IMG/VR virus record: IMGVR_UViG_3300048833_000714
Location: 1-38,444 of that record
Reading direction: 5' to 3' (one strand)
Source of the DNA: a virus
Length of the DNA stretch: 38,444 nt
In this document: one piece after another, positions 1,462 to 9,232 of the stretch
How the letters are laid out: each line of letters opens with the position of its first letter
How positions within the stretch are numbered: the first letter of the stretch is position 1
Translations under genes and position numbers: made by a program
Notes under the pieces: model-generated
The model's database searches: none
Seen by the model: only the letters and a program-made list of their open reading frames with translations
Told to the model about the DNA's origin: nothing

Positions 1462-1503
1462 GAGCAGTTCAACGCGATTCCCGCCGACGCTTTCAGCCCG
1501 TAG

Positions 1504-1523
1504 TGTTTTAGCGTGTTTTAGCG
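1504..1523 (+). repeat. tandem 10-bp direct repeat
   Basis: TGTTTTAGCG occurs twice in a row (1504-1513 and 1514-1523). Its core TTTTAGCG also lies at 776-783, just upstream of the parDE promoter, in the same orientation, so the toxin-antitoxin operon is flanked by this octamer. It could be a binding site or a remnant of the junction where parDE was inserted; the match is short enough that chance is possible. Confidence 0.5.
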
Positions 1524-1625
1524 CGATGCTCGCCGCGATAGCGGTCATGGTGGGACATGCGCGGCGATGAGGCCACGCAACATTTTCGGCGATCAGGCGT
1601 AGGATTCAATCCATGCTCGGTGGCA

Positions 1626-1658
1626 GTGGCGATGAAGCCACAGTGGCTTCGAAGCCAC
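1626..1658. repeat. nested inverted repeats around a 16-bp perfect palindrome
   Basis: Bases 1643-1658 form a perfect 16-bp palindrome, GTGGCTTCGAAGCCAC. The half-site GAAGCCAC is also at 1634-1641, so 1634-1650 is a second inverted repeat (8-bp arms, 1-base centre), and GTGGC at 1626-1630 can pair with the same arm. Three alternating half-sites of this kind look more like a cooperative protein-binding site than a terminator, since no T tract follows. Confidence 0.6.
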
Positions 1659-1718
1659 GCTCTCCGGGGAAGAAATGGGTCCTTCCTGGGGAAAGGTCCA
1701 TACGGGGGGGAACAGCGC

Positions 1719-1735
1719 GACGCTTGCCTAGCGTC
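1719..1735. repeat. short perfect hairpin
   Basis: GACGCT and AGCGTC form a perfect 6-bp stem around the five-base loop TGCCT. No T tract follows, so it is not an obvious terminator. It lies directly before the GGTTCGCA repeat array and may belong to the same functional region. Confidence 0.45.
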
Positions 1736-1738
1736 AGG

Positions 1739-1785
1739 GTGCGAACTGAGGTTCGCAGGGTTCGCAGGTTCGCACCGGTTCGCAC
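1739..1785 (+). repeat. four direct copies of GGTTCGCA with one inverted partner
   Basis: GGTTCGCA is found at 1750-1757, 1759-1766, 1767-1774 and 1777-1784, that is, at steps of 9, 8 and 10 bases, close to one helical turn. The reverse complement GTGCGAAC at 1739-1746 pairs with GTTCGCAC at 1778-1785, so the array is bounded by an inverted repeat. Iteron-like spacing suggests binding of a protein to one face of the DNA, for instance a ParB-like protein, a repressor or terminase; none of these is proven. Confidence 0.6.
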
Positions 1786-1806
1786 TTCCCCATCGATTCC
1801 ACTCCG

Positions 1807-1835
1807 CCCGCCACGGCTTTCGTCGGCGGGTTTTT
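1807..1835 (+). terminator. intrinsic terminator before the methyltransferase operon
   Basis: CCCGCC (1807-1812) pairs with GGCGGG (1825-1830), the stem being extended by ACG/CGT around a GCTTT loop, and five T follow directly (1831-1835). It would end transcription arriving from parDE. An AGGA ribosome binding site and the GTG start of the methyltransferase come just after it. The same kind of arrangement recurs at 30422-30462. Confidence 0.7.
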
Positions 1836-1856
1836 CATTTTCAGGATCCGTCCCGC

Positions 1857-3260
1857 GTGAATCCGCTGCACGTCGAGTACCGCCAGGTCGAGACGCTGAT
1901 CCCCTATGCCCGCAATCCGCGCACGCACAACGATGCGCAGATTGCCAAGATTGCCGCCAGCATCGTCGAGTTTGGCTGGACCACGCCGATCCTGGTCGAT
2001 GCGGGCCACGGTCTCATCGCCGGTCACGGGCGCTTGGCGGCCGCGCGCAAGCTGGGGCTGGCCGATGTGCCGGTGATCGAGCTGACCCACCTGACGCCAG
2101 CGCAGAAGCGCGCGTACGTGATCGCCGATAACCGCCTGGCGCTCGACGCCGGCTGGGATGAGGAACTGCTGGCGCTGGAGTTGACCGACCTCACCGAGGC
2201 CGGATTCGATCTCGCGCTGACCGGCTTCGATGACGCCGAGTTGCAATCGCTGCTCAGCGACGCCGAGGCTGGCGACCCGGAGGATCGCGACGAACCGGCG
2301 CAGGAAGACGATGAAGCCGATCAGGTGCCCGAGGCGCCAACTGTCGCGGTTTCCCGCCCCGGCGATGTCTGGCTGCTCGGCGCGCATCGCCTGATCTGTG
2401 GCGACGCCGCGGACCGCGGCGTGATCGCCGCACTGATGCAGGACGACCGAGCGCAGTTGTGCTTCACCTCGCCGCCCTACGGCAACCAGCGCGACTACAC
2501 GTCCGGTGGCATCGCCGACTGGGATGCTCTGATGCGCGGTGTGTTCGCCGATCTGCCCATGGCCGACGACGGCCAGGTCCTCGTCAACCTCGGTCTGATC
2601 CACCGCGACAACGAGTTCATCGCCTACTGGGACGGCTGGCTCGGTTGGATGCGCACGCAGGGCTGGCGTCGCTTCGCGTGGTACGTCTGGGACCAGGGAC
2701 CCGGCATGCCGGGCGACTGGGCTGGTCGCCTCGCGCCGAGCTTCGAGTTTGTCTTCCACTTCAACCGCGACACCCGCAAGCCGAACAAGATCGTGCCCTG
2801 CAAATTCGCCGGGCAAGACACCCACCTGCGCCCCGATGGATCGTCCACCGCCATGCGCGGCAAGGACGGCGACGTCGGTGGCTGGACCCATGCAGGCCAG
2901 CCGACGCAGGACCATCGCATCCCGGATTCGGTCATCCGGGTCATGCGTCACAAAGGCAAGATCGGCGAAGGCATCGACCACCCCGCCGTGTTCCCGGTGG
3001 CGCTGCCGCAGTTCGTTATCGAGGCCTACTCGGCTGAGGGCGAGATCGTGTTCGAACCGTTCTGCGGCTCGGGCACGACGATCCTCGCAGCGCAGCGCAC
3101 CGGCCGCCTCGCGCGCGCCGTGGAGATCGCGCCGGAGTATGTGGACGTGGCCGTGCGTCGCTTCCAGCAACAGTTTCCAAACGAGCCGGTGCGCCTCCTG
3201 GCCACCGGCCAACCCTTTGCTGAGGTCGCCGCTGCGCGCGCCGCGCCGGAGGCGATGTGA
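1857..3260 (+). CDS. ParB-domain DNA methyltransferase 1 (SPPY type)
   Basis: A 467-residue fusion. Residues about 1-130 are a ParB/Srx-like nuclease-fold domain (LIPYARNPRTHNDAQI, GWTTPILVDAGHGLIAGHGR, VIADNRLAL). From about 165 on it is a class beta DNA methyltransferase with catalytic motif SPPY at 205-208 before the AdoMet-binding motif FCGSGTT at 402-408. An S-P-P-Y motif is most often found in N4-cytosine enzymes, although adenine methylation is not excluded. Start: GTG at 1857, after a terminator and with AGGA ten bases upstream; an upstream in-frame ATG at 1557 would read through the terminator and repeats. The gene overlaps the next one by 4 bases. ParB-methyltransferase fusions are common in phages and are thought to protect phage DNA from restriction; no matching nuclease gene is present. 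Confidence 0.85.
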   Translation: MNPLHVEYRQVETLIPYARNPRTHNDAQIAKIAASIVEFGWTTPILVDAGHGLIAGHGRLAAARKLGLADVPVIELTHLTPAQKRAYVIADNRLALDAGWDEELLALELTDLTEAGFDLALTGFDDAELQSLLSDAEAGDPEDRDEPAQEDDEADQVPEAPTVAVSRPGDVWLLGAHRLICGDAADRGVIAALMQDDRAQLCFTSPPYGNQRDYTSGGIADWDALMRGVFADLPMADDGQVLVNLGLIHRDNEFIAYWDGWLGWMRTQGWRRFAWYVWDQGPGMPGDWAGRLAPSFEFVFHFNRDTRKPNKIVPCKFAGQDTHLRPDGSSTAMRGKDGDVGGWTHAGQPTQDHRIPDSVIRVMRHKGKIGEGIDHPAVFPVALPQFVIEAYSAEGEIVFEPFCGSGTTILAAQRTGRLARAVEIAPEYVDVAVRRFQQQFPNEPVRLLATGQPFAEVAAARAAPEAM

Positions 3261-4498
3261 GCGTGTCCTGGCTGGCCGACAAGATCGCGCCCTGGCCCAC
3301 CGATAAACTGATCCCCTACGCACGCAACGCCCGCACCCATTCAGACGCGCAGATCGCACAGATCGCCGCGAGCATCGTTGAGTTCGGTTGGACCAATCCG
3401 ATTCTCGCCGGCAGCGATGGGGTCATCGTCGCCGGCCATGGACGACTGGCCGCGGCACAGAAGCTCGGGCTGCTGTCTGTACCCGTGGTCGTGCTCGACC
3501 ATCTCACGCCGACGCAGCGTCGCGCCCTGGTGATCGCGGACAACCGCATCGCCGAGAACGCCGAGTGGGACGAAGCCATGCTTCGCGTGGAGTTGGCCGA
3601 CCTGCAGGACGAAGGCTTCGATCTCGACCTGACCGGCTTCGACGCCGACGCACTGGCCGAGTTGATGGCGGGCGACGAGCAAGATTTCGACGGCCAGTGC
3701 GACGAGGATGCCGTGCCCGAGGTCGGCGAGACACCAATCTCGCGTCCGGGCGACATCTGGATCCTGGGCAAGCACCGGCTGCTCTGCGGCGACGCGACGG
3801 TGGCCGCGAGCTACGACACGCTGCTCGAGGGCGAGGCGGCAGACATGGTGTTCACCGACCCGCCCTACAACGTGAACTACGCCAACAGCGCCAAGGACAA
3901 GCTACGCGGCAAGGATCGCGCGATCCTCAACGACAACCTCGGCGAGGCCTTCTACGACTTCTTGCTGGCGGCGCTGACGCCGATCCTGGCTCACTGTCGC
4001 GGCGCCGTTTACGTCGCCATGTCCTCGAGCGAACTCGACGTGCTGCAGGCCGCATTCCGCGCGGCGGGCGGCAAGTGGTCGACCTTCATCATTTGGGCCA
4101 AGCATACGTTCACCCTAGGACGCGCCGACTACCAACGTCAGTACGAGCCGATCTTGTACGGTTGGCCCGAGGGCAGCGAGCGCCATTGGTGCGGCGACCG
4201 CGACCAGAGCGACGTGTGGAGCATCAAGAAGCCGCAGAAGAACGACTTGCATCCCACCATGAAGCCGGTCGAGCTGGTCGAGCGCGCGCTGCGCAACAGC
4301 TCGCGCCCCGGCGATGTGGTGCTCGATCCGTTCGGCGGTTCGGGCACCACGCTGATCGCCGCCGAAAAGTCCGGGCGGGTGGCGCGGTTAATGGAGCTTG
4401 ATCCCAAGTACGTCGACGTCATCGTGCGCCGGTGGGAGGAGTTCACCGGCAAGCAGGCTATCCGCGAGGCGGCAGCCCAGGAAGAGTGCGCCAGTTGA
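3257..4498 (+). CDS. ParB-domain DNA methyltransferase 2 (DPPY type)
   Basis: A 413-residue paralogue of the preceding gene. The N-terminal ParB-like domain is very similar (LIPYARNARTHSDAQIAQI, GWTNPIL, VIVAGHGRLAAAQKLGL, VIADNRIAENAEWDE), but the methyltransferase half has DPPY at 201-204 and GGSGTT at 360-365. D-P-P-Y is the usual motif of N6-adenine methyltransferases, so the two neighbours probably methylate different bases or sites. The GTG start overlaps the previous stop (GTGA), which shows co-translation; GTG at 3263 is an alternative. At its 3' end it overlaps a small minus-strand gene by 41 bases. Likely role: modification of phage DNA as an orphan methyltransferase. Confidence 0.88.
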   Translation: MSVSWLADKIAPWPTDKLIPYARNARTHSDAQIAQIAASIVEFGWTNPILAGSDGVIVAGHGRLAAAQKLGLLSVPVVVLDHLTPTQRRALVIADNRIAENAEWDEAMLRVELADLQDEGFDLDLTGFDADALAELMAGDEQDFDGQCDEDAVPEVGETPISRPGDIWILGKHRLLCGDATVAASYDTLLEGEAADMVFTDPPYNVNYANSAKDKLRGKDRAILNDNLGEAFYDFLLAALTPILAHCRGAVYVAMSSSELDVLQAAFRAAGGKWSTFIIWAKHTFTLGRADYQRQYEPILYGWPEGSERHWCGDRDQSDVWSIKKPQKNDLHPTMKPVELVERALRNSSRPGDVVLDPFGGSGTTLIAAEKSGRVARLMELDPKYVDVIVRRWEEFTGKQAIREAAAQEECAS

Positions 4499-6749: not shown

Positions 6750-7286
6750 ATGGGACTGTCGATTCGCGCCTACGCGCGCCACCGGGGCGTGTCAGATGCC
6801 GCGGTTCGCAAGGCCATTGCCGCGGGACGCATCACGCCGGAGGCCGATGGCACGCTCGACGCCGCACAGGCCGATGCCCAGTGGTCGCGCAACACCGAGG
6901 CCCCTCGCGTCGGTACGCGCGCACAGGCCGCGCGTGCGCCCGTTCCGGCCGACAGCACGCCGACTGGCGATGCCGCTGCCACACTGCCGAACGGTGGCGC
7001 GTCGCTGCTGCAGGCGCGCACGGTCAATGAGGTGGTCAAGGCGCAGACCAACAAGGTGCGCCTCGCCCGGCTCAAGGGCGAGCTGGTCGACCGCAACCAA
7101 GCCATCGCACACGTCTTCAAGCTGGCCCGCACTGAGCGCGATGCCTGGTTGAACTGGCCAGCGCGCATCTCGGCGCAGATGGCCGCTCGGTTAGCGGTCG
7201 ACCCGCACACTTTGCATGTCGCCCTGGAGGCGGCCGTGCGCGAACACCTGCAGGAGTTGGGCGAACTGCGCCCGCGCGTCGAATGA
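6750..7286 (+). CDS. phage terminase small subunit
   Basis: A 178-residue protein. The N-terminus (IRAYARHRGVSDAAVRKAIA, AGRITPEADGTLDAAQAD) is the winged helix-turn-helix of the Nu1-type small terminase family, which recognises the packaging site. A Pro/Ala linker follows (about 50-85), then a helical oligomerisation part (ARLKGELVDRNQAIAHVFKL) and a region like the C-terminus that contacts the large subunit. AAGGG lies upstream of the ATG at 6750. The next gene overlaps as ATGA. It starts DNA packaging by binding cos or pac DNA and handing it to the ATPase subunit. Confidence 0.85.
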   Translation: MGLSIRAYARHRGVSDAAVRKAIAAGRITPEADGTLDAAQADAQWSRNTEAPRVGTRAQAARAPVPADSTPTGDAAATLPNGGASLLQARTVNEVVKAQTNKVRLARLKGELVDRNQAIAHVFKLARTERDAWLNWPARISAQMAARLAVDPHTLHVALEAAVREHLQELGELRPRVE

Positions 7287-9232
7287 TCGACTCCGTCTAC
7301 GAAGGCGCCGCGGAGATCGAACGTGCGTGGCGCGAGGGCTTGCTGCCCGATCCCTTGCTCACGGTATCGGAGTGGTCCGATCAACACCGGATGCTGTCGA
7401 GCAAGTCGGCTTCCGAGCCGGGGCGCTGGCGCACCAGTCGTACCCCGTACCTGCGCGAGATCATGGACTGCCTGTCGCCGACCAGCCCGGTCGAGCGCGT
7501 GGTGTTCATGAAGGGCAGTCAGGTCGGTGGCACCGAAGCGCTGATCAACCTGATCGGCTACGTGATCCACCTGACGCCCGGCCCGATGATGGCGGTGGCG
7601 CCAACCGTCGAGATGGCCAAGCGCTATTCGAAGCAGCGGATCGATCCGCTGATCGAGGAGAGCCCGGCGCTGCGCGCGTTGATCGCGCCGTCGCGATCAC
7701 GCGATGCCGGCAACACGATCCTGGCCAAGGAGTTTCGAGGCGGCGTGCTGGTGCTCACCGGCGCCAACTCGGCGGTGGGTCTGCGCTCGATGCCGGTGCG
7801 CTACCTGTTTCTCGACGAGGTCGACGGTTATCCGCGCGACGTCGAGGGCGAAGGCGATGCGATCCAACTGGCTGAGGCGCGCACGCGCACCTTCGCCCGA
7901 CGCAAGATCTTCATTGTCTCAACGCCAACCATCGCCGAAGCGTCGTCGATCGAACGCGAGTTCGAGGCATCCGATCAGCGGCGCTACTTTGTGCCGTGTC
8001 CACATTGCGGCCATGCGCAGCACCTGCGCTTCGAGCAACTGCGCTGGGATTGGGGACAACCGCAGTCGGTTCGTTACCACTGCGAGTCGTGCGCCGAGCC
8101 CATCGGCGAGCACCACAAGACCGCAATGCTTGGGGCCGGCTCCTGGCGGGCGACCGCCGAGGAACCCGCCAGCAAGACAGTCGGCTTCCATCTGTCGTCA
8201 CTGTATTCACCCCTCGGTTGGCGCAGTTGGGCGCAGATTGCCGCGGCCTGGGAAGCCGCACAGGGATCGGCGAATGCGCTGAAGACCTTCAAGAACACCG
8301 AACTCGGCGAGACCTGGGTGGAGGACGGCGACGCACCGGATTGGCAGCGTCTGCTGGAGCGACGCGAGGACTACCCGATGGGCCGCATCCCAGCAGGCGG
8401 ACTGCTGCTGGTGGGCGCCGCCGACATTCAGAAAGACCGCATCGAGGCGTCGATCTGGGCCTATGGACCCGGCAAGGAATGCTGGCTGATCGAGCACCGC
8501 GTGATGATGGGCGAGACCCATCACGATGCGGTGTGGAAAGAGCTCGCCGAGCTGATCGACGAGCGCTGGACGCATGAGAGCGGCGCCGAGATTCCGCTGG
8601 CGCGCTTCGCCATCGACTCCGGCTTTGCCACGCAACAGGTGTACGCCTTCGTCCGCGCCCGCAAGGATGCGCGGCTGATGGCGGTCAAGGGCGTGGCGCG
8701 TGGCGCCGCCTTGATCGGCACGCCGACTGCGGTCGACATCAGCATCGGCGGCAAGAAGCTCAAGCGCGGCATCAAGGTGTACGCGGTGGCCACCGGCATC
8801 GCCAAGCTCGAGATCACGACCTGTCTGAAGAAGACCGTCGAGACCGACGCGCAGGGCGACGTGGCCTATCCAGCTGGCTACATCCACCTGCCGAAAGTCG
8901 ACGCTGAGTTCGTGCAGCAACTCTGCGCCGAGCAGTTGGTTACGCGGCGTAATCGCAACGGTTTTCCTGTGCGCGAGTGGCAGAAGCTGCGCGAGCGCAA
9001 CGAGGCGCTGGACTGCCTGGTCTACGCGCGCGCCGCGGCTGCAGCTGCCGGACTCGATCGATTTGAAGAACGCCACTGGATCGAACTGCAGCGCCAACTC
9101 GGCGTCCCGGATCGCTCCGCTGAATCGCCATCCACCGAACTCCCGGTCGCCGATCTGGCCGACCGGGCCGCAGCAGCCACGAAGCGAACGGGCCGACGCC
9201 TGATTCGCAGTCGCTGGCTGGGCGGAAGCTGA
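7283..9232 (+). CDS. terminase large subunit, lambda GpA family
   Basis: A 649-residue protein of the size and order of lambda gpA. The ATPase has the variant Walker A KGSQVGGT (77-84), Walker B LFLDEVD (175-181) and the coupling motif STPT (213-216). A CxxC pair at 239/242 and another at 267/270 form a zinc ribbon. The nuclease half has AADIQKDRIEASIWAYG (Asp381) and RFAIDSGFATQQVY (Asp445), the usual metal-binding aspartates of this RNase H-fold domain. It cuts concatemers and pumps DNA into the procapsid with ATP. It is translationally coupled to the small subunit. GpA-type terminases belong to phages with cohesive ends, so a cos site should exist, but I could not find it. Confidence 0.95.
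   Translation: MIDSVYEGAAEIERAWREGLLPDPLLTVSEWSDQHRMLSSKSASEPGRWRTSRTPYLREIMDCLSPTSPVERVVFMKGSQVGGTEALINLIGYVIHLTPGPMMAVAPTVEMAKRYSKQRIDPLIEESPALRALIAPSRSRDAGNTILAKEFRGGVLVLTGANSAVGLRSMPVRYLFLDEVDGYPRDVEGEGDAIQLAEARTRTFARRKIFIVSTPTIAEASSIEREFEASDQRRYFVPCPHCGHAQHLRFEQLRWDWGQPQSVRYHCESCAEPIGEHHKTAMLGAGSWRATAEEPASKTVGFHLSSLYSPLGWRSWAQIAAAWEAAQGSANALKTFKNTELGETWVEDGDAPDWQRLLERREDYPMGRIPAGGLLLVGAADIQKDRIEASIWAYGPGKECWLIEHRVMMGETHHDAVWKELAELIDERWTHESGAEIPLARFAIDSGFATQQVYAFVRARKDARLMAVKGVARGAALIGTPTAVDISIGGKKLKRGIKVYAVATGIAKLEITTCLKKTVETDAQGDVAYPAGYIHLPKVDAEFVQQLCAEQLVTRRNRNGFPVREWQKLRERNEALDCLVYARAAAAAAGLDRFEERHWIELQRQLGVPDRSAESPSTELPVADLADRAAAATKRTGRRLIRSRWLGGS

Follow-up and report, generated by a model that had tools for sequence, protein, structure and literature searches.

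What is known of packaging specificity in cohesive-end (cos) bacteriophages comes from a few studied cases, lambda, 21 and N15, and in lambda the specificity residues of the small terminase subunit, TerS, are residues 20 and 24, according to the parts of PMC4669245 drawn on here. The same account places specificity in all three phages in the TerS recognition helix together with the cosB sites, which is how we read the locus described below. For six Rhodobacter phages, the portion of PMC8601537 consulted describes defined genome ends with 11-base 5' overhangs and sequencing reads stopping at one base. The window analysed here is a stretch of 38,444 bases from a virus record (IMG/VR IMGVR_UViG_3300048833_000714, positions 1 to 38,444). 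Here we report that its positions 1677-1784 are very probably the cos site of a tailed phage whose terminase is of the lambda gpA type, TerS acting on cosB and the large subunit, TerL, cutting cosN. To judge from its sequence, this is a known kind of site with a new form of cosB, made of short, closely packed repeats from which a rule linking TerS to cosB can be read. An earlier note on this DNA had marked out a dense non-coding region and listed a packaging signal among several options; that option proves to be the right one, given that the RcC genomes of Rhodobacter phages end at the homologous position and that TerS and the repeated octamers agree.

The decisive evidence for a cos site in the window is where those published RcC genome ends fall. 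Compared with phages by BLASTN, the region gave a sole match, 27 identical bases (1713-1739) in Acidithiobacillus phage AcaML1, where they lie in a gap that precedes Gp23, two methyltransferases and, further on, the terminase; a comparison with plasmids returned nothing useful, and one made with a relative's region returned chance matches only. Further loci came from a pattern scan and from a methyltransferase search of viral contigs (80 of 140 kept in the latter), and most of those aligned share one layout, in which GGGTCCTYCC comes first, then some 20 bases, a G-run and GCGC, and next a short block with CTAGCGTC at its end and a cluster of short repeats. Between lineages the flanking words are nearly constant and the repeats differ. 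The nearest annotated large terminases, at 55% identity, belong to Rhodobacter capsulatus phages. The linear record of RcDormio starts with GGGGGCGGAAGCGCGTTAAGTCCCTAGCGTGA and ends with AGGTTCTTCCGGACCCCTACGCTATGCG, the ends of RcHotPocket are identical, and when joined these ends reproduce the layout of the window with the junction directly before the G-run. Nine of the 11 Rhodobacter records with this sequence start no more than 6 bases from that point and seven of the 11 end exactly there, while the RcKai and RcOceanus records were opened elsewhere and contain the two halves side by side.

Along the plus strand, the site begins with the cosQ word GGGTCCT at 1677-1683 (extended form GGGTCCTTCC, 1677-1686; RcDormio has AGGTTCTTCC), which is part of the layout conserved in relatives. 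The cosN element, at 1705-1715, has a predicted 11-nt 5' overhang, GGGGGGAACAG, assigned by homology to the record ends of RcDormio and RcHotPocket. On the same homology the top strand would be nicked directly after G1704, with CGCG at 1716-1719 following the overhang and the start of cosQ lying 28 bases from the predicted nick (the lambda figure is 30). Between cosN and the array stands a conserved spacer block, GACGCTTGCCTAGCGTC, at 1719-1735, with 6-bp arms and a 5-nt loop; it lies within the exact AcaML1 match, and its TAGCGTC end is retained in relatives. An inverted octamer copy (1739-1746, minus strand; GTGCGAAC on the plus strand) forms the left edge of the array, and four direct copies of GGTTCGCA on the plus strand, at 1750-1757, 1759-1766, 1767-1774 and 1777-1784, make up cosB as predicted TerS sites, their type agreeing with the TerS helix. 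Across the five classes tabulated, the first copy stands at a fixed 15-16 nt from TAGCGT in nearly every locus; copies are mostly spaced 7-9 bp apart, some 10-18. In 200 dinucleotide shuffles of the full window, no 8-mer came up four times inside 40 bp (the maximum was two or fewer in 199 and three in one); the octamer array is thus genuine and exceeds what chance produces.

The window's TerS gene (6750-7286, plus strand; PHROG 57) lies about 5 kb from cos, and its helix-turn-helix has the recognition helix S15-D16-A17-A18-V19-R20-K21; TerL, of the gpA family, follows at 7283-9232 on the same strand (PF05876, 8.9e-101; PF20454, 9.3e-94). The TerS helix-turn-helix was taken from every locus and compared with the array, and the set was enlarged by TerS alignment searches (80 of 250 kept in genomes; the best 80 of at least 582 in viral contigs). 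Among the resulting 261 loci, 172 held both parts, 62 had TerS but no site found by the regular expression, and 27 were without TerS. Array type agrees with the recognition helix in 172 of 172 loci, with zero exceptions; these loci include near copies and contigs fetched twice, the distinct arrays numbering 131. The helix SD[AS]AVR goes with GTTCGCA (65 loci), [ST]DT[AS]V[HR] with GTTTGCA (69), SHTAVA with GTTGCCA or GTTTCCA (17), SHEAVR with GTTGCCA (3), ALSAVQ with GGTGGTC (10) and SHVAVK with GTTACCA (8). The count admitted only words of the form GT[TG]NNCA or GGTGGTC; a count of repeated 7-mers with no such limit gave the same words for most loci, put other words on top in a few, and found no repeated 7-mer in three SHTAVA loci.

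Two later scans brought in 31 loci from contigs new to the analysis, 20 of them with an array, and none contradicts the association of D16 with.GC and of H16 with.CC. Ten have known helices with matching arrays, five of them ALSAVQ with GGTGGTC (L283, L285, L289, L290, L296) and five SHTAVA with GTTGCCA or GTTTCCA (L293, L297, L299, L303, L304). The new helix SHPAVI occurs with GGTTACC (L288), and the new helix [ST]DMAVR with GGTTCGC in six loci (L275, L276, L278, L279, L280, L316), while SHTAVG in L272 is accompanied by GGGTTTCC and GGTTGCCA. In two lineages (L277 and L311) an ESAVR helix is paired with GGTGCGC, a new pair that the rule had not foreseen.

The distance between TerS and cos ranges from 1.5 to 6.2 kb in the D-classes and SHVAVK, and from 66 to 214 nt in SHTAVA, SHEAVR and ALSAVQ; the agreement of array and helix holds at the larger distances as well. 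On a methyltransferase tree with 142 distinct rows, drawn from 166 of 170 loci, a minimum of 18 changes of array type is required where five would suffice; a few rows may represent the second member of a methyltransferase pair. Independent pairs on well-supported branches agree for base 6 and residue 16 in five of five cases, and for base 5 and residue 17 in one of one; on the best tree, support disregarded, the pairs number seven and six, respectively. Clear switches separate L080 from L081 (support 100, short branches), set L034 apart within a GTTTGCA group (97) and set L032 and L033 apart within a GTTCGCA group (99). A tree of the TerS C-terminal part (91 rows) was too short and poorly resolved. 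RcDormio and AcaML1 have SHTAV[AG]K and GTTTCCA repeats in common, very different as their TerS C-terminal halves are.

Several observations weigh against this interpretation. The SHTAVA helix pairs with two octamer forms. Of the 62 TerS loci lacking a site, 15 hold at least 5 kb to the left of TerS, and a looser search found arrays in six of these and none in nine. All six arrays agree with the helix, provided that L248 is read by its cos-adjacent TerS: that contig has a cos array from 3826 and TerS genes at 3954 and 9001 with differing helix types, and the array fits the cos-adjacent SHTAVA protein only, the second TerS, SDAAVR, being a misfit. Eleven of the 31 later loci showed no array in the DNA examined, and three of them (L305, L308, L310) are not plainly contig-end cases. 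Base 5 and residue 17 have just the one well-supported pair, and because the sign test on the tree reaches p = 0.0625 at best, the tree pairs support, rather than prove, independent co-switching of array and helix. Finally, hhalign found no relationship between TerS and lambda gpNu1.

The first alternative is that the array is an operator or a parS-like site, bound by the ParB_N-methyltransferase or another regulator and not by TerS. A ParB_N-like methyltransferase gene does lie directly to the right in the window, ParB-like genes adjoin the Rhodobacter ends, and a repressor or ParB binding region was also among the options of the earlier note. We regard this as highly improbable: the repeats vary in concert with the TerS recognition helix, tracking it in 172 of 172 loci, including those whose TerS is several kilobases distant, the array keeps a fixed offset from cosN, and the closely related methyltransferases of L080 and L081 bear different arrays.

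If the array is cosB, the TerS residues that would make the base choice are 16, 17 and 20, perhaps joined by 24. The octamers concerned begin GGT. GGTTCGCA accompanies D16 when residue 17 is A, S or M and residue 20 is R, and GGTTTGCA accompanies D16 with T17. H16 is paired with GGTTACC when accompanied by V17/K20 or P17/I20, with GGTTTCCA or GGTTGCCA when accompanied by T17 and A20 or G20, and with GGTTGCCA when accompanied by E17/R20; L16 with S17/Q20 goes with GGTGGTC, and E-S-A-V-R with GGTGCGC. Residue 24 also varies by class (mostly A, R, K, A, D). Such a rule should allow octamer type to be largely predicted from the TerS helix, and vice versa. We consider it somewhat more probable than otherwise that a simple code of this kind sets the variable bases of the octamer, as part of a picture in which array and helix have repeatedly switched jointly by coordinated specificity steps, TerS sits head to tail in the manner of BldC, and the cos of Wolbachia phage WO uses the same cosQ and TAGCGTC words.

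Octamer words within the TerS genes were considered separately. GGTTCGCA is also present at 6803, within the codons of the TerS helix; this copy was rejected as functional, GTTCGCA occurring 10 times across the 89 TerS genes of that class, and GTGGTCA inside TerS genes was set aside as a background word, found about once per gene in the D-classes too. The 17 SHTAVA TerS genes hold their own octamer (GTTTCCA 41 times forward and 23 reverse, GTTGCCA 4 and 11), and none of GTTCGCA, GTTTGCA, GTTACCA and GTGGTCA occurs inside them. In L002 (8130-8663) and other SHTAVA TerS genes the octamers fall in a coding linker with VST/VAT protein repeats, as if cosB continued into the gene.

In the mechanism that we propose, the substrate would be replicating phage DNA, concatemeric or circular. 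TerS would use its helix-turn-helix domain to bind the octamers of cosB, both inverted and direct, probably by direct contact, and place TerL over cosN, where TerL would nick the strands 11 bp apart, the top strand after 1704; the exact nick positions in the window phage are those predicted from its relatives. Packaging would run rightward with the methyltransferase genes first, and TerL would cut again on reaching cosQ and cosN in the following genome copy. BldC binds direct repeats of about 9 bp head to tail, four per 36-mer, in the sections of PMC5859096 consulted. Since the copies in the arrays are mostly 7-9 bp apart, several TerS domains aligned head to tail on the repeats, by analogy with BldC, are a reasonable but unproven arrangement.

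The structural model of the window's TerS is of moderate quality (mean predicted local distance difference test score 72.8, predicted template modelling score 0.29, the first 40 residues at 82-87). Its neighbours in the PDB include Xis, MerR-like regulators, RacA and BldC, none with a Foldseek E-value below 0.3; the best are Xis (4j2n, prob 0.98) and BldC (6ama, 0.75), and the gpNu1 domain 1j9i stands at rank 27 (E 3.2, prob 0.60). A search of TerS against solved structures gave lambda Cro alone (E 0.024), which was discarded. Residue 20 of the window's TerS is among those that vary between classes. We take its numbering to correspond to that of lambda TerS; the two were matched by eye on a gpNu1 sequence, a correspondence to which hhalign lends no support.

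Outside cos, the region contains further elements, and of the single coherent element proposed in the earlier note only part stands: cos at 1677-1784 forms one unit, and the elements at 1503-1658 are separate from it. The features that the note had described, a tandem 10-bp repeat, a 16-bp palindrome in nested inverted repeats, four direct octamers with an inverted one and a terminator-like hairpin, are all present at or near the places given, and it had passed over the most telling parts, namely the cosQ word, the G-run of cosN and the GACGCTTGCCTAGCGTC block. The tandem 10-mer, two copies of GTGTTTTAGC at 1503-1522 (plus strand), has a perfect counterpart in 5 of 50 shuffles, and near relatives carry GGGTTTTGGCGTGTTTTGGCG or GTGATTTGGCGTGATTTGGCG. 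The perfect palindrome GTGGCTTCGAAGCCAC at 1643-1658, inside the nested inverted repeats, is one of four perfect 16-bp palindromes in the window, where 50 shuffles gave 0-5, mostly 1-3; as it is at chance level and relatives do not keep it, it was dropped as a conserved element. The dyad GAAGCCAC-A-GTGGCTTC at 1634-1650 (plus strand, left of cosQ) and the tandem 10-mer are retained in several near relatives, though not all, and display little covariation. A stretch TGCAACA...GTAG.ATT...CCATGCT is also conserved in near relatives at 1503-1650, between the DUF6362 gene and cosQ. The 1503-1650 elements are possibly promoter and operator; as a guess, the 10-mer and dyad may serve a promoter or the DUF6362 gene product.

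A structured RNA with a regulatory or attenuator role upstream of the methyltransferase operon, a small structured RNA having likewise been suggested in the note, would draw on the terminator-like hairpin CCCGCC...GGCGGG plus TTTTT (1807-1835, plus strand, between cosB and the methyltransferase; read by eye and kept in near relatives), on the dyad kept in near relatives and on compensatory change in 4 of 17 predicted upstream pairs. As an explanation of the region it is very unlikely, because an Rfam search of 1300-2000 gave sub-threshold matches only, the upstream consensus fold has no net covariation support (term +0.52) and the conserved core coincides with genome ends; such an RNA may exist in the flanks alongside cos. 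Least credible of all is a pac site of a headful packager, for which nothing specific speaks, the deposited circular records of AcaML1 and LPPA36 being uninformative about ends, and against which stand the defined cohesive ends of the RcC relatives at the homologous place and the likeness of words and spacing to lambda cosQ and cosN.

Translation of the region can be set aside. The frame is open over 1557-3260, and the note had rightly held its extra residues to look meaningless: in 65 relatives sharing this repeat class, the spacing between cosN and the methyltransferase start falls in all three frames (36/15/14), and five have in-frame stops, which rules out the open frame as protein.

To the right of cos, the first gene (1857-3260, plus strand, GTG start) encodes a ParB_N-like domain fused to an N6_N4 DNA methyltransferase (Pfam), with relatives aligning from residue 1; the ParB_N domain scores below threshold and is the only ParB-type feature of the window. 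To the left lie the DUF6362 gene (354-749; PF19889, 4.8e-40) and, as the immediate neighbour of the region, a ParD/ParE-like toxin-antitoxin pair (839-1461; ParE PF05016, 2.4e-10; ParD TIGR02606, 8.3e-8, below cut-off). This pair sits between the DUF6362 gene and cos, where different sequence is found in near relatives, L006 and L007 among them, so that it looks recently inserted.

Candidate sites were also seen in more distant phages. In all five Wolbachia phage WO loci aligned, GGGTCCTT[TC]C is followed about 45 bases on by [CT][TC]AG[CT]GT[CT]AGA (from 11150 in L265, AB036666.1; 931 in L266, 928 in L267, 911 in L268, 312 in L269). A DNA methylase gene follows in the three loci annotated there, and no octamer array was seen in the five. 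No description of a WO packaging site was found in the literature on WO ends (titles and abstract starts, open-access texts). In Pseudomonas phage ZRG1 (L102), at about 7266, CATGCGGG...CTAGTCTCAGG followed by scattered GTAGCC words stands ahead of a ParB_N gene, possibly as a diverged cos.

Seven octamer types are now available together with the matching TerS helices, as are near relatives distinguished by that pair alone and one genome with two TerS genes, so that the TerS-cosB rule is directly testable by small swaps in laboratory phages. The rule could help to predict where the genomes of many uncultivated phages physically end, has a bearing on cross-packaging of DNA among phages and satellites and, by homology, offers a candidate end for phage WO. 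Literature on TerS, cosB, the recognition helix, cohesive ends and coevolution held no title on this array family (titles and abstract starts, open-access texts), and a search for the octamer strings was uninformative.

Set beside the known systems, the window resembles the Rhodobacter RcC phages RcDormio and RcHotPocket in layout and end position; their TerS helix SHTAVG occurs with GTTTCCA and GTTGCCA repeats, so that the octamer differs, and, unlike the window, they have a ParB-like gene without methyltransferase beside the end. The passages of PMC8601537 on the RcC ends do not discuss the repeats. BldC, Xis and the MerR-like winged-helix proteins are alike in mode only, not being packaging proteins. 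With N15, the SHTAVA class is comparable in having an extra site inside the TerS gene, as far as PMC4669245 was drawn on; the complex R3-R2-R1 form of cosB is absent from the window, where an IHF site was not searched for, and by the same part of that account N15 lacks the complex form too. The window differs from lambda in an overhang of 11 bases, by homology, and not 12, in a cosB that is a tight octamer cluster, mostly at 7-9 bp, instead of R3-IHF-R2-R1, and in a TerS gene placed 5 kb from cos whose product is without sequence similarity to gpNu1. Like lambda, it has GGGTCCT at the right end, a predicted G-rich overhang followed by CGCG at matching spacing (the left end of lambda being GGGCGGCGACCT), putative TerS sites to the right of cosN and a gpA-type TerL.
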